Of a stretch of 64,000 nt of DNA, positions 24,995-53,199 are shown piece after piece (within the stretch, counting starts at the first letter, position 1; each line of letters opens with the position of its first letter). The position numbers were made by a program, and so were the translations under genes. Below the pieces are notes generated by a model. That model saw only the letters and a program-made list of their open reading frames with translations. It made no database searches and was not told the DNA's origin. The stretch is taken from positions 1 through 64,000 of the forward strand of contig JAITVV010000006.1 of the NCBI GenBank assembly GCA_031285625.1. Direction: 5' to 3'. This stretch comes from Prevotella sp. GTDB taxonomy: Bacteria; Bacteroidota; Bacteroidia; Bacteroidales; Dysgonomonadaceae.

Positions 24995-26641
24995 ATGAAA
25001 AAAAGCGCATTACAAATTGCACGAGCTGCTTACAAACCTAAGATGCCTAAAGCATTGTATGGTTCAGTTAAGATTGAGGAAGGGGCAGCTACACAGTCTG
25101 TAGCAGATCAGGAAGAGGTGAAAAAGCTATTCCCTAATACTTATGGAATGCCTACACTTAAATTTGTAGAGACCTCTGAAAAAGTAAATCATCCTGCTAT
25201 TAATGTTGGTGTTATTCTATCAGGCGGACAAGCTCCGGGTGGACACAATGTTATAGCCGGAATTTTCGATGGTATCAAGAACCTCAATGTTAGCAGCCGT
25301 CTTTTTGGTTTCCTTATGGGACCTGGTGGTTTGGTTGATCATGATTATAAAGAACTGACAGCTGATATTATAGACGAATATCGTAATACGGGTGGTTTTG
25401 ATATAATCGGTTCTGGTCGTACAAAACTGGAAACAAAAGAGCAGTTTGATAAAGGACTCGAGATATTAAAGAAATTAGATATTAAAGCCTTAGTAATTAT
25501 CGGAGGCGATGACTCAAATACTAATGCTTGTGTGTTGGCAGAATATTACAAAGAGATAAATGCAGGCGTGCAGGTAATCGGCTGCCCTAAAACAATCGAT
25601 GGTGACCTGAAGAATGAAATGATAGAAACTTCTTTTGGTTTCGATACTGCATGTAAAGTCTATGCTGAGGTTATTGGTAATATACAGCGCGACTGTAATT
25701 CTGCCCGTAAATATTGGCATTTCATCAAATTGATGGGCCGTTCGGCTTCGCATATTGCTTTAGAATGTGCTTTACAAGTACAACCCAACATTTGTATTAT
25801 ATCTGAAGAAGTGGAGGCTAAAAAGTTGTCTCTTGACGATATAGTTACTGATATTGCTAATATTGTAGCAAAACGTGCTGAAGCTGGTAACAATTTTGGA
25901 ACTGTTCTTATTCCGGAAGGCCTTATTGAGTTTATTCCGGCAATGAAAGGACTTATTGCAGAACTGAATGACTTCTTGGCTCACCATCAACGTGAATTTA
26001 ATGCTGTGCCTAAGGATGACCAACTAGCATATATCCAAAAGAATTTATCAGGTGAAAATGCTCGAATATTTGCTAGTTTACCTTCCGGTGTAGCTCGTCA
26101 GTTGACATTAGATCGTGATCCACATGGAAATGTACAGGTCTCCCTTATCGAAACAGAAAAGCTGTTGGCTGAAATGGTTGGCAATAAACTTGCAGAAATG
26201 AAAGCTACCGGAAAATATAAAGGTAAGTTCGCAGCACAAGAACATTTCTTCGGATATGAAGGTCGTTGCGCTACTCCTTCAAATTATGATTCAGATTACT
26301 GTTATTCATTAGGATATACTGCATCTGCTCTTATAGCGGCAGGAAAAACAGGTTATATGTCATCTGTGCGCAATACTACTGCACCTGCGAGTGAATGGAT
26401 TGCTGGTGGTGTTCCGGTAACGATGATGATGAACATGGAACGTCGCCATGGCGAAATGAAACCTGTAATCCAAAAAGCTTTGGTATTATTGGATGGTGCT
26501 CCATTCAAATACCTTCAGGCCAATCGTGAAGCTTGGGCTATTGGTACAGAATTTGTTTATCCTGGTCCTATACAGTTTTTCGGGCCGACAGAGGTTTGTG
26601 ATCAACCTACAGTAACATTGAAACTGGAACAAGGAAGATAA
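24995..26641 (+). CDS. pfp: Pyrophosphate-dependent 6-phosphofructokinase
   Basis: The 548-aa enzyme phosphorylates fructose 6-phosphate reversibly using pyrophosphate instead of ATP. The motif at 170-174 is GGDDS; the second Asp, where ATP enzymes have Gly (GGDGS), is the known marker of PPi use. PKTIDGD (198-204) provides the catalytic Asp pair. The length and the N-terminal extension fit the long PFP-beta-like clade of Bacteroidales and plants. The gene is followed by a strong terminator. Confidence 0.95.
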   Translation: MKKSALQIARAAYKPKMPKALYGSVKIEEGAATQSVADQEEVKKLFPNTYGMPTLKFVETSEKVNHPAINVGVILSGGQAPGGHNVIAGIFDGIKNLNVSSRLFGFLMGPGGLVDHDYKELTADIIDEYRNTGGFDIIGSGRTKLETKEQFDKGLEILKKLDIKALVIIGGDDSNTNACVLAEYYKEINAGVQVIGCPKTIDGDLKNEMIETSFGFDTACKVYAEVIGNIQRDCNSARKYWHFIKLMGRSASHIALECALQVQPNICIISEEVEAKKLSLDDIVTDIANIVAKRAEAGNNFGTVLIPEGLIEFIPAMKGLIAELNDFLAHHQREFNAVPKDDQLAYIQKNLSGENARIFASLPSGVARQLTLDRDPHGNVQVSLIETEKLLAEMVGNKLAEMKATGKYKGKFAAQEHFFGYEGRCATPSNYDSDYCYSLGYTASALIAAGKTGYMSSVRNTTAPASEWIAGGVPVTMMMNMERRHGEMKPVIQKALVLLDGAPFKYLQANREAWAIGTEFVYPGPIQFFGPTEVCDQPTVTLKLEQGR

Positions 26642-26660
26642 TTTTTTATAATATTGTGAG

Positions 26661-26690
26661 AGAGGCTATATATTTATATAGCCTCTTTTT
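26661..26690 (+). terminator. Terminator of the PPi-PFK gene
   Basis: AGAGGCTATATA (26661-26672) pairs perfectly with its complement at 26675-26686, followed by TTTT. Confidence 0.88.
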
Positions 26691-26829
26691 ATTTGGTATT
26701 GAAAGCATTAGATTTGTTAATCCGTTTGCTGGAACAGGCTTTTCTAGGTTTTCTTATAAAAACATGGTGAAATCTTTTGTTTTTTAATAAAAATCTTATA
26801 CTTTTACACTGCTTTTGAAGCAAAAGGAT

Positions 26830-26900
26830 TGTCTCATGGTGTAATGGTAGCACTGCAGATTTTGGTTCTGCCTGTCAAAGTTCGAATCTTTGTGAGACAA
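26830..26900 (+). tRNA. tRNA-Gln (anticodon UUG)
   Basis: The acceptor arms TGTCTCA (26830-26836) and TGAGACA (26893-26899) pair perfectly. The anticodon arm is GCAGA, loop TTTTGGT, TCTGC, giving anticodon TTG for glutamine, and the T arm is CAAAG, TTCGAAT, CTTTG. CCA is not encoded. It stands alone. Confidence 0.93.
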
Positions 26901-26924
26901 CATTTAAAAAAAATAAAGAAATTT

Positions 26925-26957
26925 AAAAGTCACTAAGCCGGTGACTTTTTCTTTTTA
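26925..26957 (+). terminator. Terminator of the tRNA-Gln gene
   Basis: AAAAGTCAC (26925-26933) pairs with GTGACTTTT (26941-26949), followed by TTCTTTTTA. Confidence 0.8.
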
Positions 26958-27185
26958 TATGGGTAAATGAGCCGATGTCTAAGGATTATTATGTAAAAAT
27001 AAATCTGGTATTTGCTATTAATATATTTTGACTGTTAACCTTGGTTGGGTTATTTTCCCATTTAAATATTATGATAAGTTAAATATTCTTTTGTAATTTG
27101 CACCAATCTTATGTAAAAGGAATGTCGCACTCTGACGTAAGGAATAGAGCTATTGAAAAACTTGCAGAATAACTAATGAATAGTC

Positions 27186-27740
27186 ATGGATCTAAATAAT
27201 CTGAACTTTGATGATATATATTCCAAATATTATTCGAAGTTAGTTCGCTTCTCTAAAGAGTATGTTTTGACAAAAGCAGATGCTGAAAATATTGTTCAGG
27301 ATGTTTTTTTGTTCATATGGGAGAAGAGAGATTCATTAGATACGATACAAAATATAAACGCATTCTTATTTAGACTGGTAAAAAATAAATGTGTGGATTT
27401 CTTGAGGCGTAAAATAAATACCGAGGCCAAAAATAAGGAAATACAGGATGCACTCCTTAAAGAATACAATTTCAAACTATACTCTATCCAACAATTTGAT
27501 GATTCTTTACTTTCAGATGAAGAAATAGACCATATCATCTATAAAGCAATAGACACCTTACCTGAAAAATGTCGGGAGATATTTATTCTTTGCAAGATTG
27601 AAGGCTTGAAATATGAAGAAGTAGCAGAAAAAATGAATATTTCACCTAACACTGTGAAAAACCAAGTAGTTATTGCCCTCAAAAAAATGAAAAAAGAATT
27701 AAAAGATTTTATGCCGCTGCTGACTTTCTTAATTGTTTGA
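27186..27740 (+). CDS. ECF-type RNA polymerase sigma factor, PUL1
   Basis: The 184-aa protein has the two-domain ECF layout: sigma region 2 at about 10-75 (FDDIYSKYYSKLVRFSKEYV, AENIVQDVFLFIWEKR) and region 4 at about 120-172, with the helix-turn-helix LKYEEVAEKMNISPNTVKNQVVIALKKMKK. It starts PUL1 and is followed after 117 bp by its FecR-type anti-sigma factor. It should direct transcription of the susC-susD operon at 28989 when the SusC protein signals that its glycan is present. Confidence 0.93.
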   Translation: MDLNNLNFDDIYSKYYSKLVRFSKEYVLTKADAENIVQDVFLFIWEKRDSLDTIQNINAFLFRLVKNKCVDFLRRKINTEAKNKEIQDALLKEYNFKLYSIQQFDDSLLSDEEIDHIIYKAIDTLPEKCREIFILCKIEGLKYEEVAEKMNISPNTVKNQVVIALKKMKKELKDFMPLLTFLIV

Positions 27741-27857
27741 TTATTAATATTTATGCTGTGTGAGACTTGCCATTTATTTTTCAAGAAGATATATTTTTTT
27801 AATTCTTTTAGTCCGAAAATTCTTTTCAAACGACCTATAAATATAAAATGAAATCTG

Positions 27858-28802
27858 ATGGATGAAAGATTAACAAATTATCTTTTAGGATTATTATCTG
27901 ATAAGGAAAAGGTGACTCTGTTTGAAGAAATGGAGAGCAATGAATCCTTGAAAGCTAAATATGCTGAGGCACAAAATCTCATGTCATTAGCACAAATGGT
28001 GGAAGAGCATGATGATGATAAATATACTGCTAATAAACTCAATGAATTTAAAAGAAAAACCCATACTTTACTAATTCGTAAAATAGCTTTCAGGGTATCA
28101 AAATATGCAGCAGCAATTCTTATTTTGATTGGTGTAGGCTTCATTTTCAATAAATATATTCTTGATGATAGATATATAGAATATACTTCTCCTGTGGGAA
28201 AACGCACTGAAATTACTTTATCTGATGGTACTACAGTACACTTGGCACCATCCTCAAAGATTAGAGTGCCTAAGAAATTTGAAGGAAAAGAACGTTTGGT
28301 AAAATTAGATGGAGAGGGGCTCTTTGATGTTACTAAAAATAAAGAGATGCCATTTATTGTGGAAACAGGCAAATATAATATTCAGGTTTTAGGAACAAAG
28401 TTTAATGTACGGGCATATTCGAAAGACTCCAATTTTGAAACTTTCCTTCTCGAAGGCTCTGTGAATGTGTATAATGATATTGAAAAAGTACAACTGCGGC
28501 CAAACGAAGGAGTTACTTTAGTTGATAATCGATTGATAAAGACTTCAGTGGATATTACCAATGTGAATTATATGCAAACAGGTGTATATACATTTGAGAA
28601 TAAGTCGTTAAGGGAGATATTAAGCAAGTTGGAAACTTGGTATGGTATCGAATTCAGAGTCAAAAATAAGAAACTTGAAAACTTTTCTTTATCGGGTAAG
28701 TTTATAGAAAATGATAAAATAGAACATATATTATTGGCTATTCAACAAATATACCCCTTCCGGTATAAGAAAATATCAGAAAATGTAATTGAAATATATT
28801 AA
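27858..28802 (+). CDS. FecR-type anti-sigma factor, PUL1
   Basis: The 314-aa protein has a cytoplasmic sigma-binding N-terminus (1-75), a single membrane helix at about 85-103 (YAAAILILIGVGFIF), a periplasmic FecR domain (about 110-215; ITLSDGTTVHLAPSSKIRVPKKF, then VLGTKFNVRAYSKD) and a C-terminal DUF4974 domain (about 240-314; FENKSLREILSKLETWYGIEF). It should hold the sigma factor until the STN domain of the PUL1 SusC touches the C-terminal domain. Gene order sigma-FecR-SusC supports this. Confidence 0.92.
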   Translation: MDERLTNYLLGLLSDKEKVTLFEEMESNESLKAKYAEAQNLMSLAQMVEEHDDDKYTANKLNEFKRKTHTLLIRKIAFRVSKYAAAILILIGVGFIFNKYILDDRYIEYTSPVGKRTEITLSDGTTVHLAPSSKIRVPKKFEGKERLVKLDGEGLFDVTKNKEMPFIVETGKYNIQVLGTKFNVRAYSKDSNFETFLLEGSVNVYNDIEKVQLRPNEGVTLVDNRLIKTSVDITNVNYMQTGVYTFENKSLREILSKLETWYGIEFRVKNKKLENFSLSGKFIENDKIEHILLAIQQIYPFRYKKISENVIEIY

Positions 28803-28879
28803 CCAAATTAACCTTATTAGTATTAACCTTTAAAACCTGATCTATGAAAATACACAGTGGATAATAACCGACTTATGAG

Positions 28880-28976
28880 AAAAAATCAGAGGAATGTTGC
28901 ACCACTCCTCTGACAATAAGGTGTATACCTTCTTTCTCTCTAACTTATTGATAAATCTAGTATTAACACCAAATTC
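28880..28976 (-). ncRNA. Candidate cis-antisense RNA opposite the susC leader, PUL1
   Basis: On the minus strand a -7-like box TATTTTTG (28989 to 28982) overlaps the susC start codon. About 97 nt downstream of the implied start comes a hairpin, TCAGAGGA (28906-28913 read in reverse) with TCCTCTGA, followed directly by six T's. The hairpin has no T-run on the plus strand, so it is oriented as an antisense terminator. I see no TTTG at -33. The layout is shared with PUL2 and PUL3 and resembles the DonS-type RNAs of Bacteroides fragilis PULs. Confidence 0.45.
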
Positions 28977-28988
28977 ATTAGCAAAAAT

Positions 28989-31900
28989 ATGAAAAAATAT
29001 GTTTTGCAGCCTTATTTATTATTAAAAGATTTCAATTTTAGGTACTTACGACAGCTTATGAGATTGTCTTTATTCTTACCAATGGTAATGAGCCTGCAAT
29101 TATTTGCCGCTACTACCCATTCTCAAACATCAAAAGTACATATAGATAAAGGAGATATAAGCTTGGGTAAATTGATTAACGAGATCGAAGCCCAAACTAA
29201 TTATCTTTTTATTTATAGCAGGAATGATGTAGATCTTAATCAAAAAGTCAAAATAAATACTAATGAAAAACAAGTTAGTAAAATCCTTGACAATGTACTA
29301 AAGCCTATTAATATAGACTACATACTATCTAATAGCTACATATCTCTTAAAAAAATGAAAAAGCCTATTCCTGTTATCGAACAACAACAGTTGTTGAAAC
29401 AGGTAAAAGGGAAAATACTCGATAATTTGGGACAGCCTCTGATAGGAGTAGTAATTACACTTAAAGACACAAAAATCGGAACAGTGTCCGATGTAGACGG
29501 CAATTATATTATTGATGCCGATCCCGGGCAGACACTGGTTTTCTCATATGTTGGCTTTCAAACTATAGAGAAAGAGATTCCAACATCTCTAGTTCTTGAT
29601 ATTATTATGAATGAAGATGTAAAAGCTCTCGAAGAAGTAGTTGTTATTGGATATGGTACTACAAAGAAAGCATCCCTTACGGCATCCGTTGCTTCTATAA
29701 AGGGACAGGAAACCGCACTCAAACCAGTTGCCAATGTCAGCCAGAATCTGGTTGGCCGTATGCCGGGTCTTATTGCCCGTCAAGGTAATGGTGAAATCGG
29801 CTACGACAGTCCTGATATTTTTATTCGTGGTAAAGGAACGACAGGCAGCGCCGGGGCAATGGTAGTTATTGATGGGGTGCCCCGTGATAATTATGGACAG
29901 CTTGATCCTGCCAGTATAGAAACGATAACCATACTTAAAGATGCTGCAGCCGTTGCACCTTACGGAATTGGAGGAGCAAATGGGGTTATCCTGATAACTA
30001 CAAAAAAAGGTAAGACCGGAGCACCTACTGTTTCTTATAATGGATATATCGGCTTTCAAAATCCTACTCGTATGCCGGAAATGGTTAACTCTTATGAGTA
30101 TGCAACTTTACTGAATGAAGGAGCCCGAAATAGCGGACTTACAAACATGCCTTATTCAGATGAACAAGTGGCCATGTTTAAAAAAACGGTGGATGGAGCT
30201 GCTGATACCGACCGTGACCGTTATCCCAATAGCCGTGGTATAAGGGATATCATACGACGTAATACTGTATTAACTTATCATAACCTCGAAATATCAGGAG
30301 GATCAGACTTTGTTAACTATTATGTATCATTGGCTTATACTGCACAGGACGGAATGTTTAAAGGTACCGATATGAAACGTTATAATGTATCTAGCCGTTT
30401 GGATATGAAAGCTACAAAAACAACTGATATATCGTTATCATTAAGTGGATATGTTGCTGACCATAACTATCCGGGCGAAGGTGCAGGAAGTATTGCTTAT
30501 GCAGCCGTACGCCAACCGGCTACTGAGGCTATATGGTATTCCAACGGACTGTGGGGTAATTATCTTGGACGCTCTCCGGTGGCTTTGGGTAGCAACCTGA
30601 GCGGATATACGAAAGAAGAACGTACTCAGCTTTACACGACTCTTACGATAGAGCAAAAACTACCTTTCCTGGAAGGTTTAAGCATAAAAGGGTTAGTGAG
30701 TTATGATCCATATACTCTTTTTAAGAAAGAATGGAGAAAACCTAGGTTGTCTTATACTCCTGATTTTTCTACTACACCTTATACATTCAATGAAACATAT
30801 GAGGGTGATTATAGTCTTTATGAAAAAGATGAAAATAATAAAAGATTCACTTTTCAGGGATATATCAATTATCAACATCGTTTCAACGAATTACATGACG
30901 TGAGCTTTCTGGGAGTAGCCGAACGTAAAGAAAGAAAAAAACGATGGTTCGATGCCAAACGTACAGGTTTCCCTATCGATATAGACGAGATGGATCAGGG
31001 AAGTACTGAGGCTGGAAAAATAGCTAATAGTGGTTCATCAGAGCGGGACACCTCTGTGGGATTCTTATACAGGATCGGATATACATATAACAACAGGTAT
31101 ATGCTTGAAACTTCCGGCAGGTATGATGGACATTACTATTTTGCCCCTGGTAAAAGATGGGCATTCTTCCCTTCTGTTTCAGCCGGATGGAATATATCCG
31201 AAGAGAATTTTATGAAAAATACATTTCCGAATCTGGAAATGTTAAAACTGAGGACATCATATGGAGAATCCGGTAATTTAGCTGGTGAGCCTTTCCAATA
31301 TATGTCAGGTTACAAAACGTCTTCTAATTCTGCCTATTTTGGAAATCCAACTACCGGAGTATATGAAATGAAACAAAACAATCCGTTTATTACCTGGGAA
31401 AAAGCTAAAAAGTTTGATGTGGGTGTTGATGGAGTTTTATGGAGAGGAAAACTATCTTTCTCTGTAGATTATTTTTACGATAAACGTGACAATATGTTAG
31501 TCGATCCTTTTGTTACTGTTCCGTTAGAGTATGGTATTGAATTACCACAGGTAAATGGTGGAAAAATGAGTAACCAGGGGATAGAGATAATGCTTTCCAG
31601 TGCACATACATTTGCTAATGGTATGAGATTGGACTTATCTGGTAATTTTACCTATACACACAATAAATTGTTAGAAAATTTCGAGACAGCCAGTACGTAC
31701 AATAATCCAAACAGAAGACGTACAGGACGACCTTTTGAAACACAGTTCGGTTATGAGGCTTTAGGCTATTATACTACTGATGATTTCAATGCTGATGGTA
31801 GCTTAAAATCGGGTATTGCGTCTATTTCTGATGCTCCTGTACAACCAGGTGATATTAAATATGCCGATTTGAGTGGCCCGGACGGTGTACCTGATGGCAT

Positions 31901-32429
31901 TATCAATTCGTATGACGAAACAGTAATCGGACGACCCAAAAATACACCACAGATCATCTACGGATTTGCGCCAACTCTTTCTTGGAAAGGTTTTGATTTT
32001 AACATGCTCATACAGGGTGCTGCAATGAACAGCTTATATCTTGATGGTACGATGGCACATCCATTCGAAAGCCAGGGATCAGCTACCAAACTGCAATATA
32101 AAGATCATTGGACTCCTGAGAATGTAAATGCAAAATATCCACGTGTATATAATGCTCCTGTAGAACACAATAAGGTAGTATCATCTCATTGGATGCGTAA
32201 TGCAGCTTATCTGCGCTTGAGAAGTTTAGAGTTTGGATATACTTTGCCCCGATACATTACCGAAAAAGTGGCTATGCAAAGAGTTCGTTTCTACTTTGCC
32301 GGGCAGAATCTGTTTACATGGACTCCTTATATGAAAGAAAAGATTGATCCGGAAGCGGGTAACACTGATGGACGTTACTACTATCAGCAACAGGCGTTCT
32401 CTTTTGGTATAAACGTAACTTTTAAATAA
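28989..32429 (+). CDS. SusC-type TonB-dependent receptor with STN domain, PUL1
   Basis: The 1146-aa outer-membrane transporter imports oligosaccharides with TonB energy. After the signal sequence (about 20-45) comes an STN signalling domain (about 55-115), a carboxypeptidase-D-like domain (about 133-205, VKGKILDNLGQPLIGV), the TonB plug (about 215-330, with EEVVVIGYGTTKKASLT and TILKDAAAVAPYGIGGANGVILITTKKG) and a 22-strand barrel to the C-terminus ending FGINVTFK. STN marks it as a transducer that signals to FecR as well as a transporter. It begins 186 bp after fecR, and susD follows after 12 bp. Confidence 0.95.
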   Translation: MKKYVLQPYLLLKDFNFRYLRQLMRLSLFLPMVMSLQLFAATTHSQTSKVHIDKGDISLGKLINEIEAQTNYLFIYSRNDVDLNQKVKINTNEKQVSKILDNVLKPINIDYILSNSYISLKKMKKPIPVIEQQQLLKQVKGKILDNLGQPLIGVVITLKDTKIGTVSDVDGNYIIDADPGQTLVFSYVGFQTIEKEIPTSLVLDIIMNEDVKALEEVVVIGYGTTKKASLTASVASIKGQETALKPVANVSQNLVGRMPGLIARQGNGEIGYDSPDIFIRGKGTTGSAGAMVVIDGVPRDNYGQLDPASIETITILKDAAAVAPYGIGGANGVILITTKKGKTGAPTVSYNGYIGFQNPTRMPEMVNSYEYATLLNEGARNSGLTNMPYSDEQVAMFKKTVDGAADTDRDRYPNSRGIRDIIRRNTVLTYHNLEISGGSDFVNYYVSLAYTAQDGMFKGTDMKRYNVSSRLDMKATKTTDISLSLSGYVADHNYPGEGAGSIAYAAVRQPATEAIWYSNGLWGNYLGRSPVALGSNLSGYTKEERTQLYTTLTIEQKLPFLEGLSIKGLVSYDPYTLFKKEWRKPRLSYTPDFSTTPYTFNETYEGDYSLYEKDENNKRFTFQGYINYQHRFNELHDVSFLGVAERKERKKRWFDAKRTGFPIDIDEMDQGSTEAGKIANSGSSERDTSVGFLYRIGYTYNNRYMLETSGRYDGHYYFAPGKRWAFFPSVSAGWNISEENFMKNTFPNLEMLKLRTSYGESGNLAGEPFQYMSGYKTSSNSAYFGNPTTGVYEMKQNNPFITWEKAKKFDVGVDGVLWRGKLSFSVDYFYDKRDNMLVDPFVTVPLEYGIELPQVNGGKMSNQGIEIMLSSAHTFANGMRLDLSGNFTYTHNKLLENFETASTYNNPNRRRTGRPFETQFGYEALGYYTTDDFNADGSLKSGIASISDAPVQPGDIKYADLSGPDGVPDGIINSYDETVIGRPKNTPQIIYGFAPTLSWKGFDFNMLIQGAAMNSLYLDGTMAHPFESQGSATKLQYKDHWTPENVNAKYPRVYNAPVEHNKVVSSHWMRNAAYLRLRSLEFGYTLPRYITEKVAMQRVRFYFAGQNLFTWTPYMKEKIDPEAGNTDGRYYYQQQAFSFGINVTFK

Positions 32430-43222: not shown

Positions 43223-46200
43223 TTAAAAGGTTATATCGATACCGAATGAATAATAACGCTGGAATGGGTAATTACCGCCCCAATCGGCAGATTCAGGGTC
43301 CCAACCTCCTTTAACATTGTGATGTTCCCAAAGATCCTGACCACTAAAGTACACTCTGGCTTTAGAAATGGCTATTTTCTTGGTCAGTTCGGAAGGAATT
43401 GTATATCCTATCTGAAGGTTCTTCAACCTGATATAAGAGGCATCAACTTTTTGTAAGGTAGACTGCTGATAGTTCCAGTAACGGATATCTCCATGTGACA
43501 ATCGTGGATAATATGCATCCGGACGATCTTCATTCCATGTTTGCTGATAATAGAATTGTGGTGGTTGTCTCCACCAATCACTCCAAGGCATTGAATATTC
43601 CCCGGTTCTGAATAGTGTTCTTTTACCCACTCCCTGGAAGAATGCTGAAAAATCAAATCCTTTTAAGCTGGCTCCTATTGTTATACCATAATTATAACGT
43701 GGGGTCATATTTCCTACATATTTTACATCACCATCATCATTTGTTCCATAGGTAGATATTTTGCCATCACCATTCAGGTCTTTAAATCGTGCATCACCTA
43801 TACCAATATTACTTGGTACTCCTTCCAGTTTCTTATATTCGTCCAGTTCGGCCTGATTACGAATTAGTCCGTCAAACTCATAAGCAAAATAACTATTAAC
43901 AGGATATCCTTCACGGATTCTATTATGTCCTAATACATAGGTATCGAGTCCTCCATAATTTGTTACTTTATTATGAGCATCGCTTACTACAACTTTAGCA
44001 AAATATTCTACAGGTCCGGCTTTGTCTCTCCATCCTATACTAGCCTCAAAACCCCATGTTTTTAATTCTCCGGAATTAGAAGAAGGGGCTGTTGCACCCA
44101 TCAGGCTTGGATAGGTAACAGGTATCAGCATATCTTTATTCCGTTTCCAGAAATAATCGAATGATATATCCAGCCGGTTTCTGAGAATTGTAGCATCCAG
44201 ACCGATATTCTGATTGATAATAGTTTCCCAGCTCCGTTCGCGGGCGACCATTCCATCAAGTCGGAGAGACTGTGTACGTGTTCCAGCCCCGAAAGGATAA
44301 ATTAAGATATCTCCCCATCCTCCTTTTCTTGGTGTAAGTTTTTGTATGAAATCGTATAATCCGATTCCTTCCTGGTTTCCTGTTTCTCCGTATGATGCAC
44401 GTAATTTGAGTTCGTTTACAAATTCAACTGATTTCATAAATCCTTCTTTCGATATGCGCCATCCAGCTGAAACTCCGGGGAAGAATCCCCAGCGTTTATC
44501 CGCTCCCGAGAACCGGGAACTTCCGTCATACCTGAGATTAGTCTCAAATAAATATTTTTCATCATATACATAGCCAAACCTGCCAAAGAAAGAGTTTATA
44601 CTCCAGTGACTGCCGCCGCCGGAATTTCTCATGTTATTAGTATTACCTAATTCCATATCCCAGATATCGTTCTTGAAACCATCACGCCATGCACTGAAAG
44701 TATCATAGTTGTTTTCTTCATGTGCAGCACCTCCCATTACATCGATAGTATGTTTACTTCCGAAGTTTTTATTGTATTGGAAATAGGCAGTATAGTTGCG
44801 ATATTGTGTTTCGGCATTTGTCTGTGTCAGATTAGCTTCGTCGGGATTTACATCATAGTATGCAATCTGATCATCCCATGTGTATAAAGGAACCGATTTG
44901 GCGGGATCTTTTGAATTCATGGATGTTTGTATAATACCTGCCTGCAATATCAATTTGAATCCGTCGAAGACATCTGTAATCAATCTGAAATTGGTATTCA
45001 ACTGATTGGTTTTATACTTTGATACAGCTTTTTCTTTAGCTAATGCCACAGAATTACTCCATCCTCCTTGTGTAAAATAATTTCCTGAAGGAGTGTAAAC
45101 CGGATGGTTCGACATATCGAATATACCTTCTCCGATAACCCAGTCGCCAACTCCACCTATACTGCTGCGAATCTGGCTTTCGAAAGATACTTTGGCTTCC
45201 AGTTTAACTCTGTTGAAGAAGAAATAGTCATAGTTCAATCTGAGATTATACCTTTTGTTATTATCATCTGCATATCTGACAACACCCCTCTGGTCTATAT
45301 ATCCGGCTGACAAGTAGTAATTCGAGTTTTCTCCTCCGCCTGATACACTCAAATTGTGTTTCTGTTGAAATCCGTTACCCAGTAGTTCTTTCATCCAGTC
45401 AGTATTGGTAAAGAATAACATCCATCCTCCGTATAGAGGGTGTGGTATCGGGTTAGGATCATTTTTTAATATCCTGTTCAGGTAATCTTCAGTGTACATT
45501 GGCGTAACCCCGTTATGAATATTAGCCTCATTATCCATGATTGCCATTTCGTAAGTAGTAGGGCTTTTCATCATACCTGCACTCTTGGTGACAGCGAAAT
45601 TTCCATTATAATTAATTCTGGGCTTGCCGCGTTTACCGCTTTTGGTAGTCACCAGAAACACACCGCCTGACGCCCTTGCCCCATAGATAGAAGCCTGAGC
45701 ATCTTTCAATATGCTTATCGATTCTATATCATCCGGTCCTAACAGGTTAATATCTCCTGCTATTCCGTCAATAATAACGAGTGGCCCGATTTTACCATCA
45801 TCATCATTCGTTGAAGAAAGACCACGTACCTTCATGGTGAAAGATTCATTACCTGGTTCTCCGCCATATCTTGTAATAAGCATACCCGGTATTTCGCCCT
45901 GTAAGGCAGAGAGCGGATTGTTTACTGGTTTAGCTTGCATGACTTCACCGGACACTGTTGCCACCGCACCTGTCAGATTGGCTCTTTTCTGGGTACTATA
46001 ACCTACTACTACCACTTCATCTAATAGTTTGAGATCTTCTTGCAATACTATTTGTAAAGCATCTTTAGTACCTACGGTTTGCTCTTGGCTGATATACCCT
46101 ATGTAGGAGAATTCAAGGATATCCTTACTATTATTGATACTGATTTCGAAATGCCCGTTTATATCGGTTATCGTACCAATCTGTGTACCTTTAATTTTTA

Positions 46201-46669
46201 CAGTTACTCCGATCAGAGGCTCTTCCTTTTCGTCGATAACGGTACCTGTTATTTTTCTTGATTGATTAATAATTTGGGTATCGGTTACTTCTTTATTGCC
46301 TTCTTTATATAATACAATATGTTTTCCATCAATAGTATATCCGATGCTATTCTCATCGAATATTGTATTCAGTATGTAAGGAACATTCTCGTCTTTTGCA
46401 TCAAGAGAAATCTTCTTTATAACATTTATCTCCTGTGGATTGTATGTGAAATAAAAGTCAGTTTTCTGCTCAATGATCGAGATCACTTCTCTTATAGTTT
46501 TATCCTTTACATTCAGTGATATTTTTGTTTTCTGAGAATATGAAACCGAAGTGAAAGAGAAAAAACTTAAGAATAATAGAAATAGTATAAGACTTTTCAT
46601 TACCGCAAAAATTTTATCTAGCCTCCAAGTTTTAAAACCCGGAGGAATGTTTTTCATAATATAATTCAT
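43223..46669 (-). CDS. SusC-type TonB-dependent receptor with STN domain, PUL2
   Basis: The 1148-aa protein has an N-terminal signal helix (about 22-45), an STN domain (about 50-120; LNVKDKTIREVISIIEQKTDFYFTYN), a carboxypeptidase-like domain (about 138-205), the plug (about 215-330; LLDEVVVVGYSTQKRANLTGA) and a 22-strand barrel. The first ATG (46669) or the one at 46657, giving MKNIPPGFKTWRLDK, may be the true start; the latter fits SusC proteins better. STN links it to the FecR gene upstream. It imports the PUL2 glycan. Confidence 0.94.
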   Translation of the reverse strand: MNYIMKNIPPGFKTWRLDKIFAVMKSLILFLLFLSFFSFTSVSYSQKTKISLNVKDKTIREVISIIEQKTDFYFTYNPQEINVIKKISLDAKDENVPYILNTIFDENSIGYTIDGKHIVLYKEGNKEVTDTQIINQSRKITGTVIDEKEEPLIGVTVKIKGTQIGTITDINGHFEISINNSKDILEFSYIGYISQEQTVGTKDALQIVLQEDLKLLDEVVVVGYSTQKRANLTGAVATVSGEVMQAKPVNNPLSALQGEIPGMLITRYGGEPGNESFTMKVRGLSSTNDDDGKIGPLVIIDGIAGDINLLGPDDIESISILKDAQASIYGARASGGVFLVTTKSGKRGKPRINYNGNFAVTKSAGMMKSPTTYEMAIMDNEANIHNGVTPMYTEDYLNRILKNDPNPIPHPLYGGWMLFFTNTDWMKELLGNGFQQKHNLSVSGGGENSNYYLSAGYIDQRGVVRYADDNNKRYNLRLNYDYFFFNRVKLEAKVSFESQIRSSIGGVGDWVIGEGIFDMSNHPVYTPSGNYFTQGGWSNSVALAKEKAVSKYKTNQLNTNFRLITDVFDGFKLILQAGIIQTSMNSKDPAKSVPLYTWDDQIAYYDVNPDEANLTQTNAETQYRNYTAYFQYNKNFGSKHTIDVMGGAAHEENNYDTFSAWRDGFKNDIWDMELGNTNNMRNSGGGSHWSINSFFGRFGYVYDEKYLFETNLRYDGSSRFSGADKRWGFFPGVSAGWRISKEGFMKSVEFVNELKLRASYGETGNQEGIGLYDFIQKLTPRKGGWGDILIYPFGAGTRTQSLRLDGMVARERSWETIINQNIGLDATILRNRLDISFDYFWKRNKDMLIPVTYPSLMGATAPSSNSGELKTWGFEASIGWRDKAGPVEYFAKVVVSDAHNKVTNYGGLDTYVLGHNRIREGYPVNSYFAYEFDGLIRNQAELDEYKKLEGVPSNIGIGDARFKDLNGDGKISTYGTNDDGDVKYVGNMTPRYNYGITIGASLKGFDFSAFFQGVGKRTLFRTGEYSMPWSDWWRQPPQFYYQQTWNEDRPDAYYPRLSHGDIRYWNYQQSTLQKVDASYIRLKNLQIGYTIPSELTKKIAISKARVYFSGQDLWEHHNVKGGWDPESADWGGNYPFQRYYSFGIDITF

Positions 46670-46682
46670 ACATTTGTGATGT

Positions 46683-46765
46683 TTAGTTAATAATAAACTT
46701 AGACTGTCTCTAAAAGATTATTGCTAAATCTACCGGGAGAAGTTGCCTCTTCTTCCGGTTTTTAT
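46683..46765 (+). ncRNA. Candidate cis-antisense RNA opposite the susC leader, PUL2
   Basis: On the plus strand TACATTTG (46669-46676), a full -7 match, overlaps the susC start codon in the same register as in PUL1. About 50 nt past the implied start comes a hairpin, ACCGGGAGAAG (46732-46742) with CTTCTTCCGGT (46749-46759, one G-T pair), then TTTTTATTTTT. The T-run lies on the plus strand only, opposite to all genes around it, so this is an orphan terminator unless an antisense RNA exists. No clear -33 TTTG. Confidence 0.5.
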
Positions 46766-46817
46766 TTTTCTGATTTTATTTCATAGGCTCTGGGAATTAA
46801 TAAGGTTAATCAATTGG

Positions 46818-52063: not shown

Positions 52064-53080
52064 ATGGAACAAAACAAAGCATATCGTATTCTTCAGCATT
52101 TGATCAGTAAGATGCCTTCTTCTGAGCATAGGAATCTAATACGCCGCTGGCTTATTGGAGAAGAAAATGCTGAAGAGAAAGATAGTGCGATACAGCATAT
52201 ATGGAATAATACAAATGCAGCAGCAGATGAGTCTATATATATGTCTTTGGCTGATACCCATTCTAAAATAAAGCAGGTAAAGAAACAAAAATCCAGAAGA
52301 CGTTTTATAAAACTCTTAACCCGCTATACCGCTATTCTTATCTTACCCATCATATCCGGACTTACTGTTTGGTTTATATCAGATCAGAGGCAGGTTGATG
52401 TTGAGTTAGTTGAATGTTATGTTGCAAATGGGGAACGGAGGACAATAGAATTGCCTGATGGGTCTCAGGTACAGGTAAATTCCGGTTCATTATTCATATA
52501 CCCCAAAGAGTTTATTGGAAAAGAGCGCATTGTTTACCTGGCAGGAGAAGCTAATTTCTCGGTAGAGAGCAATCACAAGAAACCTTTTATCGTTGAGTCC
52601 AAGTCTTTACAGGTACGTGTTGTGGGTACTAAATTCAATGTAGAATCCTATCCCGAAAATGATCAAACGATCGTTACACTGGAACATGGCGCTGTAAAAG
52701 TATACAAGGATAAAAATCCTCGAAAATCCATCCTGATGAATCCAAACGAACAATTGACCTATTCTTCTATAGAGAACCGTTTTACCCTTTCTCAGGTCGA
52801 AGCTTCATCTTTTGCAACATGGACTTCAGGCGAATTATATTTTAGTAAGAAAACACTTAACCAGATACTGGAAACGCTTGAGCGTCATTATAATGTAGAT
52901 ATACACACAGATCCTCTTATAAACTATACAGACCATTATACGATGAGGATAAGGTCACATGAAACTATCGAAGATGCCCTCAATGTATTAATTCAAATTG
53001 TAGATAGTAAAAAAATAACATATAAAACAGCAGGTCAGACTATATACTTGCTCCCAAAAGGAAAGGAGGTGAGGCGATAA
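52064..53080 (+). CDS. FecR-type anti-sigma factor, PUL3
   Basis: The 338-aa protein has a charged cytoplasmic N-terminus (1-83), one membrane helix (about 88-108; LLTRYTAILILPIISGLTVWF), a FecR domain (about 118-230; RTIELPDGSQVQVNSGSLFIY, VVGTKFNVESY) and a DUF4974 tail (about 260-330). Its stop codon lies right at the end of the candidate antisense RNA of this PUL. It should restrain the sigma factor encoded upstream. Confidence 0.92.
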   Translation: MEQNKAYRILQHLISKMPSSEHRNLIRRWLIGEENAEEKDSAIQHIWNNTNAAADESIYMSLADTHSKIKQVKKQKSRRRFIKLLTRYTAILILPIISGLTVWFISDQRQVDVELVECYVANGERRTIELPDGSQVQVNSGSLFIYPKEFIGKERIVYLAGEANFSVESNHKKPFIVESKSLQVRVVGTKFNVESYPENDQTIVTLEHGAVKVYKDKNPRKSILMNPNEQLTYSSIENRFTLSQVEASSFATWTSGELYFSKKTLNQILETLERHYNVDIHTDPLINYTDHYTMRIRSHETIEDALNVLIQIVDSKKITYKTAGQTIYLLPKGKEVRR

Positions 53081-53187
53081 AAAAGGATTAGGAAAGAGTC
53101 TGCTACACTATCTGCCTACATCTGAAATCATTCTGATTTATATTCAGGAAATATTCGAGTTAACTAAAAATCTATACATTAAATCTG
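53079..53187 (-). ncRNA. Candidate cis-antisense RNA opposite the susC leader, PUL3
   Basis: TAGCATTG (minus strand, 53200 to 53193) is a one-off -7 box in the same register over the susC ATG as in PUL1 and PUL2, and here TTTG lies 21 nt upstream of it (53225 to 53222). About 70-100 nt on, an imperfect hairpin pairs 53086-53092 with 53115-53122 (one bulge) and 53095-53097 with 53111-53113, and is followed by C and six T's. It is the weakest hairpin of the three. Confidence 0.35.
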
Positions 53188-53199
53188 ATACACAATGCT

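Follow-up and report, generated by a model that had tools for sequence, protein, structure and literature searches.

Which glycans Bacteroidota can use as food depends on their polysaccharide utilization loci (PULs). One such locus, in a 64,000-nucleotide stretch of Prevotella sp. contig JAITVV010000006.1 (assembly GCA_031285625.1, GTDB family Dysgonomonadaceae; hereafter the window), raises the question of what is encoded opposite the leader of its susC gene. A gap of 186 bp separates the anti-sigma factor gene (FecR) from susC, and an earlier reading of the sequence (the original prediction) had placed in this gap a minus-strand promoter and terminator, yielding an RNA that acts as DonS and its relatives do in Bacteroides fragilis. 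Comparative sequence analysis showed, on the antisense strand, a structured element that is conserved and tied to FecR-susC junctions. We consider it likely that positions 28976-28880 (minus strand) are a DonS-type cis-antisense RNA gene, which would silence susC, susD and the following enzyme gene by loop-loop contact and would be overrun once the extracytoplasmic function (ECF) sigma factor is released.

The minus strand from 28991 downward reads CATATTTTTGC. The segment CATATTTTTG (28991-28982) places a -7 box over the start codon of susC, the first T of TATTTTTG (28989-28982) lying opposite the A of the ATG (28989-28991). About 70 nt past the box on the same strand is a hairpin with perfect 8-bp arms, TCAGAGGA/TCCTCTGA (28913-28906 and 28893-28886), whose stem grows to 12 bp with G.U and inner pairs around the loop GTGCAA; six T residues (28885-28880) follow on the minus strand only. 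The box over the ATG, the perfect hairpin with its T-run and the site outside the genus Bacteroides thus agree with the original prediction, and the position, -7 box, terminator and predicted length of about 97 nt all fit a DonS-like antisense RNA. Five terminator-like sites occurred within 27400-30400 (1.8 ± 1.5 expected); the 28885-28914 hairpin has 12 pairs in its stem and the others 5 or 6. The 98 nt from 28973 to 28876 (minus) folded at -32 kcal/mol (z -4.9, equalled by 0 of 200 shuffles), and the plus strand of the gap folded only at z -1.3. By itself CAAANNTATG is not rare (7 occurrences in the window, 5.0 expected); the box stands above chance because its combination with the terminator repeats at homologous junctions. 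A coding antisense RNA was considered and rejected, as the 97-mer contains short frames only. The parts of the element are as follows.

28982..28989, minus strand: -7 box TATTTTTG of the antisense promoter, reaching onto the first base of the susC start codon; seen in the sequence and in the same register in the class.
28880..28976, minus strand: predicted antisense RNA of about 97 nt, its ends placed from the box and T-run; covariance model and fold.
28959..28970, minus strand: 5' arm of stem-loop 1, GGTGT-TA-ATACT; fold of the 97-mer, helix 1 of alignment A2 (described below).
28920..28929, minus strand: 3' arm of stem-loop 1, GGTAT-ACACC; fold of the 97-mer, helix 1 of A2.
28885..28914, minus strand: stem-loop 2, the intrinsic terminator hairpin; fold, helix 2 of A2, apex motif type B.
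28897..28902, minus strand: loop GTGCAA of stem-loop 2 (UUGCAC on the sense strand); fold.
28880..28885, minus strand: T6 run that ends the terminator, the first of the six also closing the hairpin in a G.U pair; sequence.

Does this arrangement recur? FecR_C places were taken from the better-scoring among the matches listed and from relatives of the window FecR in the genus, so that they are not a random draw. Of 139 + 89 loci entered, 222 remained once four with no open reading frame (ORF; L262, L301, L326 and L335) and two duplicates had been removed; L107, L130, L131, L132 and L289 (Segatella copri) were left out of the locus set. We defined a junction as a gap of 80-350 bp after a FecR_C gene (42 of the 222 loci had shorter and 5 had longer gaps and were not counted), which gave 158 in-class junctions from the source genome, its genus, the same class and named genomes. 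The gene after FecR_C was the next long ORF, its susC identity not having been confirmed one by one, and the genome handles include both G005 and G183, apparently one assembly. Counts are from an energy-based terminator scanner; an earlier scanner overlooked hairpins with long loops or mismatches.

An antisense terminator was present at 128 of the 158 in-class junctions and a sense terminator at 13, compared with 8 of 350 dinucleotide shuffles and 3 of 17 junctions from other classes of the phylum. The stem ended a median of 94 nt from the ATG. The box CATANNTTT[GA] occupied the same start-codon register at 100 junctions, and its strict form CATANNTTTG did so at 70. The two elements went together: 91 junctions had both, 9 the box only, 37 the terminator only and 21 neither (p 5e-5). 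The source genome has 24 FecR_C loci that were taken as FecR genes, 20 of them with a gap of 80-350 bp; there the terminator was found at 15 junctions, the box at 14 and the strict box at 12, with both at 14, the terminator only at 1, neither at 5 and the box only at none (p 4e-4). The original prediction had named conservation of box and T-run in related PULs as its own test, and both were present at L108 (identical to L282), whose FecR is 48% identical to that of the window; L039, with a SusC 70% identical, carries CATATCTTTG, and its hairpin is followed by a T-run.

Of the 51 genome handles in the class, 41 contained one or more junctions where both elements stood together, and named hosts with such a junction are Bacteroides, Phocaeicola, Parabacteroides, Seramator, Tannerella, Dysgonomonas, Salegentibacter, Chitinophaga, Parapedobacter, Runella and Flexithrix; Flammeovirga had no gaps within the 80-350 bp range. 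Terminators were frequent in Parapedobacter (9/9) and Chitinophaga (7/9) and the box in register rare (1 and 2, respectively), so the antisense promoter may lie elsewhere in these two genera. Three side observations concern individual loci. L010 (G000:C90) has a longer variant of the module, in which terminator and ATG are 131 nt apart and the box is shifted by about 36 nt. The susC at G000:C21:61993-64440, considered together with L013, contains six in-frame stops and stands beside an antisense element that looks intact. By eye, many FecR-linked SusC proteins have some 20-25 residues before a second Met and a hydrophobic stretch, with the box at the first ATG.

The hairpin loop also recurs. 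Although the arms vary in sequence between loci with complementarity kept, an apex motif, RUG-UU-N3-4-S-CAY or its reverse complement, was found in 45 of 130 distinct junction hairpins versus 2 of 622 other terminators (p 3e-35, with junctions that are not independent). The motif had been drawn from the first 62 hairpins and its wider form was fixed after later genomes were seen; in held-out hairpins from later-fetched genomes the strict motif occurred in 8 of 59 (p 8e-8 versus control). Its two orientations were roughly equal (25 and 20). Six-letter loops (n = 30) had the consensus G, S, M, G after the fixed UU (UUGSMG), and the motif loops matched YUNR in 22 of 45 cases and UNR in 44 of 45. 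The second copy in the window, introduced below, has the loop UUGCCU. At the related junctions L123 (UUGCCG) and L124 (CUGCAA) the loop stands in opposite orientation, and in both L123/L124 and L113/L125 the arms are similar and the loop orientation opposite, as if the apex had been inverted. Such opposite orientation in related junctions makes an RNA-binding protein acting on one strand unlikely, and pairing of sense and antisense loops would permit it. A loop that recurs on either strand points to loop-loop (kissing) recognition. Complementary 6-nt loops on both window RNAs are in themselves a consequence of being antisense. At somewhat less than even chances, a hexaloop pair UUNNNG/CNNNAA would join the sense and antisense RNAs, with the middle letters serving as a private address for each PUL and the module being used outside PULs as well. 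Identical loop pairs were found in 0 of 29 comparisons within a genome versus 63 of 961 between genomes, which is suggestive only, about 2 being expected.

Folding of the RNA was examined by covariation. Alignment A2 comprised 24 elements, namely the window and 23 of 27 candidates (L113, L118, L121 and L125 omitted). Two helices emerged, in which 17 of 21 pairs had changed on both sides and 95% of cells paired; none of 500 shuffles reached any of these measures, and slid structures dropped to 38-45%. Helix 2 is the terminator, the criterion by which the loci had been picked, and helix 1, GTTAATAC...GTATTGAT, had been noticed before the rows were chosen. With all 28 rows, 11 of 12 pairs of helix 2 had changed on both sides. 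An alignment-free test took the 91 in-class junctions that had both box and terminator; the RNA body, without the terminator, folded on the antisense strand at a mean z of -2.8, with 85 of 91 under -1; the sense strand gave a mean z of -0.6, with 31 of 91 under -1 (paired p 9e-16).

These results bear on the rival that fared best, in which the antisense RNA is real but a by-product and two promoters that face each other at a distance of about 100 bp interfere by collision and occlusion of polymerases. The geometry suits mutual occlusion, as the box across the start codon faces the putative ECF promoter and the terminator lies just inside it. Interference would not call for a folded RNA; nevertheless, the stem of the terminator covaries, the antisense body folds, wobble pairs favor the antisense strand and the hairpin loop recurs; we regard interference alone as improbable.

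Which strand carries the structure was further assessed by a strand-neutral search for inverted repeats, which returned 107 distinct repeats from the 158 junctions. Read as antisense RNA, they contained 170 G.U pairs versus 30 A.C pairs (sense-strand wobble), and a T-run followed on the antisense side in 89 of 107 and on the sense side in 1 of 107. It is the antisense RNA whose structure evolution has kept. The same comparisons address a hairpin acting on the sense strand, as an attenuator, 5' stabilizer or riboswitch-like element of the susC mRNA. The sense strand of the window hairpin can fold, with 8 + 2 bp and the loop UUGCAC, at -11.3 kcal/mol versus -15.7 kcal/mol for the antisense strand, and sense bodies were slightly better than shuffles, as their mean z indicates; the T-runs, the wobble pairs and the more strongly folded antisense bodies all speak for the other strand, and a sense-strand role appears quite unlikely.

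Lower still we place the proposal that the CAAANNTATG context is a translation signal of the sense mRNA and the hairpin an unrelated terminator keeping antisense noise out of fecR. An A-rich stretch before the ATG is plausible for translation in Bacteroidota, and 9 of the 100 box-bearing junctions had no detected terminator. Other susC genes of the genome served as controls. Fifty of 56 SusC places were read (34 without FecR, 15 with a long N-terminus and the startless L186), the remaining 6 belonging to FecR loci. Among the 34 susC genes without an adjoining FecR_C, the strict box was found at none and the relaxed box at 2; an antisense terminator (score at least 17) was present in 3, each also terminator-like on the sense strand, and one more (L151) had an antisense terminator scoring 16.1. 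The co-occurrence of box and terminator in genome and class, the stem end at a median of 94 nt from the ATG and the folded antisense body in between likewise argue against a translation signal, which we hold to be very unlikely. Least probable of all is a dyad serving as operator for a DNA-binding protein: the apex motif does occur in both orientations, as in a DNA dyad, but the arms change between junctions with only complementarity kept, and the T-run and G.U bias are strand-specific.

A covariance model (R1) built from A2 was used to search for the element. In the source genome (4.84 Mb, 94% complete, 150 of 4939 first candidates scored), all 8 matches at E ≤ 1 lay at FecR-susC junctions; five were training sequences and three were not. 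The window copy (28991-28877), a training sequence itself, scored 58.5 bits, with non-standard pairs flagged in stem-loop 1. One of the three matches outside the training set is a second copy in the window, which the original prediction did not include.

46667..46768, plus strand: further antisense RNA of this family, facing the leader of the susC at 43223-46669 (minus strand); model match of 52.1 bits, outside the training set.

Nine named genomes gave 39 matches, 10 of them training sequences. Of 54 R1 matches, 45 loci were read, 15 of which were training sequences; 42 adjoined a FecR_C domain on the opposite strand, 2 lay at FecR-free susC leaders and 1 lay elsewhere, and without the training loci the corresponding numbers were 27, 2 and 1 of 30. 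The two at susC leaders are L392 and L410, with no FecR_C found within the locus. L376 (1501-1586, in G081) matched between the malate synthase and isocitrate lyase genes; here the module stands opposite the isocitrate lyase leader, with the box at the start codon, a TGTTGCCGCA apex and a T-run, and use of the module outside PULs is possible. A genome-wide search for the pattern TGTTNNNGCA-N7-13-TTTTT gave 24 places versus 7 for a backward control, with some overlap, and two of the 24 are known junction hairpins (C29:52579 and C33:15263). At E ≤ 1, the sole Rfam 15 match in 26000-30000 of the window was a tRNA (26830-26900). In 14 loci of the source genome there was likewise no Rfam 15 match at this threshold, and no family reached its gathering score at the element; a MicX match over the L191 junction was at chance level (24 of 75 bits, E 0.28).

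How might such an RNA act? The genes on which it bears, and the sense promoter that we propose, are as follows.

27186..27740, plus strand: ECF sigma factor gene (Sigma70_r2, Sigma70_r4_2).
27858..28802, plus strand: anti-sigma factor gene (FecR, FecR_C; PF04773, PF16344).
28989..32429, plus strand: susC gene, the presumed target (PF13715, PF07715, weak PF07660; TIGR04056).
28823..28846, plus strand: putative ECF promoter of susC, with TTAACC (28823-28828), 13 nt and CTATG (28842-28846); seen in the sequence, start site presumed.

The STN domain (PF07660) of this susC scores under the Pfam cut-off, and the gene is followed by susD and then by a gene for a GH2 beta-galactosidase with a ricin-type lectin domain. 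The motif GYYWATG occurred in 55 of 158 junctions versus 4.8% of shuffles, 110-135 nt before the ATG in 40 of 59 occurrences, and AACC preceded it by 11-16 nt in 20 of 25 AACC occurrences. We read this motif as the probable ECF promoter of susC; the TTAACC/CTATG of the window is a loose match that fails the strict GYYWATG. By eye, the sense CTATG opens ORFs of 3-6 codons in eight loci; this mini-ORF was set aside because its ATG is part of the promoter-like motif, upstream of the inferred start.

In the mechanism that we favor, the housekeeping sigma factor would initiate the antisense RNA at the -7 box across the susC start codon. The RNA would cross the susC leader as far as the intrinsic terminator, which lies a short way downstream of the putative ECF promoter. 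Most of the leader, to within about 12 nt of the ATG, would thus have its complement in this RNA, which would not reach the start codon itself. While FecR holds the ECF sigma factor, the RNA would silence leaky expression of susC, susD and the following enzyme gene. First contact would be made between the terminator hairpin and the matching leader hairpin, through the loops GUGCAA and UUGCAC, after which the RNAs would zip up and translation would be blocked or the leader exposed to cleavage. Once freed, the ECF sigma factor would drive strong sense transcription across the ATG, where the antisense promoter lies, and would thereby shut that promoter off. We infer transcription at this site, repression, the kissing start and occlusion.

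Several observations weigh against this proposal. No -33 TTTG was visible upstream of the window -7 box, and a -33 element was also absent from the logo of in-class junctions. The junctions include orthologues and hence are not independent, and 30 of 158 had no detected antisense terminator. A third ECF/FecR/susC junction in the window (53081-53199; FecR at 52064-53080) had neither box nor terminator by the earlier scanner, which would mean that PULs within one genome differ in this control. RNAalifold applied to all 28 rows (A3) kept helix 2 only and dropped helix 1. The apex motif was absent from 85 of 130 hairpins, including all 10 from Flexithrix, and only its held-out figure is clean, since the first hairpins had shaped the motif; the window loop pair GUGCAA/UUGCAC conforms to UNR and fails the strict YUNR. 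In the source genome the scanner had found 15 elements, of which R1 recovered 8 and missed 7; when R1 was run with stricter filters on 148 genomes from the phylum, it matched in 7 including the source genome, with 7 matches elsewhere. Passages of a later study of Bacteroides thetaiotaomicron describe 32 PUL antisense RNAs with mixed correlations, some antisense/PUL pairs correlating positively (PMC10994844).

If the proposal is correct, this type of control would extend to most of the ECF-type PULs that were sampled from the class, among them those of hosts distant from gut Bacteroides. A mechanism open to direct test by compensatory loop changes is suggested by the loop that recurs, the fold of the antisense strand and the placing of the promoter on the start codon. 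With a covariance model, annotators could mark such genes, which Rfam 15 did not match at the sites tested.

Among known RNAs, the structured Bacteroidota RNA Flavo-1 (RF01705) had no match in 26000-30000 or in 14 loci of the source genome at E ≤ 1; a single sub-threshold match in L191 (25.8 of 42 bits) lay outside the junction. In the passages shown of the Flavobacterium psychrophilum transcriptome, which reports 287 antisense regions, none was at susC (PMC9723704). FopS and GibS of Bacteroides are likewise small RNAs, and FopS binds susC translation starts and represses PUL72 according to excerpts of PMC11697453; the FopS paralogues are trans-encoded and share one seed, whereas the window RNA is cis-encoded. 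CopA of plasmid R1 and its relatives share with the window element complementary hairpins on the antisense RNA and the leader; they differ in acting on replication genes rather than chromosomal transporter operons. The loop UUGGCG, which falls within the consensus UUGSMG, is that of IncI/IncFII-type control RNAs, and a literature search without most subscription journals found no paper on a UUGGCG loop of an antisense RNA. The YUNR U-turn rule for antisense RNA loops, as given in part of PMC4485353, holds in its strict form for 22 of the 45 motif loops and not for that of the window. We do not class the window RNA as a CopA-like member and say only that it would work like one.

The closest relative is DonS (Cao et al. 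2016, as cited in PMC7366714, PMC10994844 and PMC11697453), described in sections of PMC7366714 as the representative of antisense RNAs of 78-128 nt opposite susC; ten more RNAs with the DonS orientation were detected in B. thetaiotaomicron, five of them confirmed by northern blot. Like them, the window RNA would be antisense to the susC leader between an anti-sigma gene and susC, and its predicted length of about 97 nt falls within their range. An intrinsic 3' terminator is present at the window copy and at 128 of the 158 in-class junctions. Of the sigma-ABfr promoter type of DonS, the -7 box TATTTTTG is seen in the window and the -33 element is not recognised. R1, trained partly on such loci, matched Bacteroides and Phocaeicola junctions, and box and terminator were found at 8 of 11 Bacteroides oleiciplenus and 4 of 7 Phocaeicola vulgatus junctions read. 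DonS represses its B. fragilis PUL, "albeit through an unknown mechanism" (a passage of PMC11697453); a negative effect on susC is reported for these RNAs. The window RNA, a putative repressor predicted from sequence, has a host outside Bacteroides. Beyond the original prediction, the second window copy, the recurrent hairpin loop and the folded RNA body are added. The present analysis also contributes a survey across the class, a covariance model, tests of the strand, the loop rule, the observation of a promoter fused to the start codon and the finding of no Rfam family at the site.

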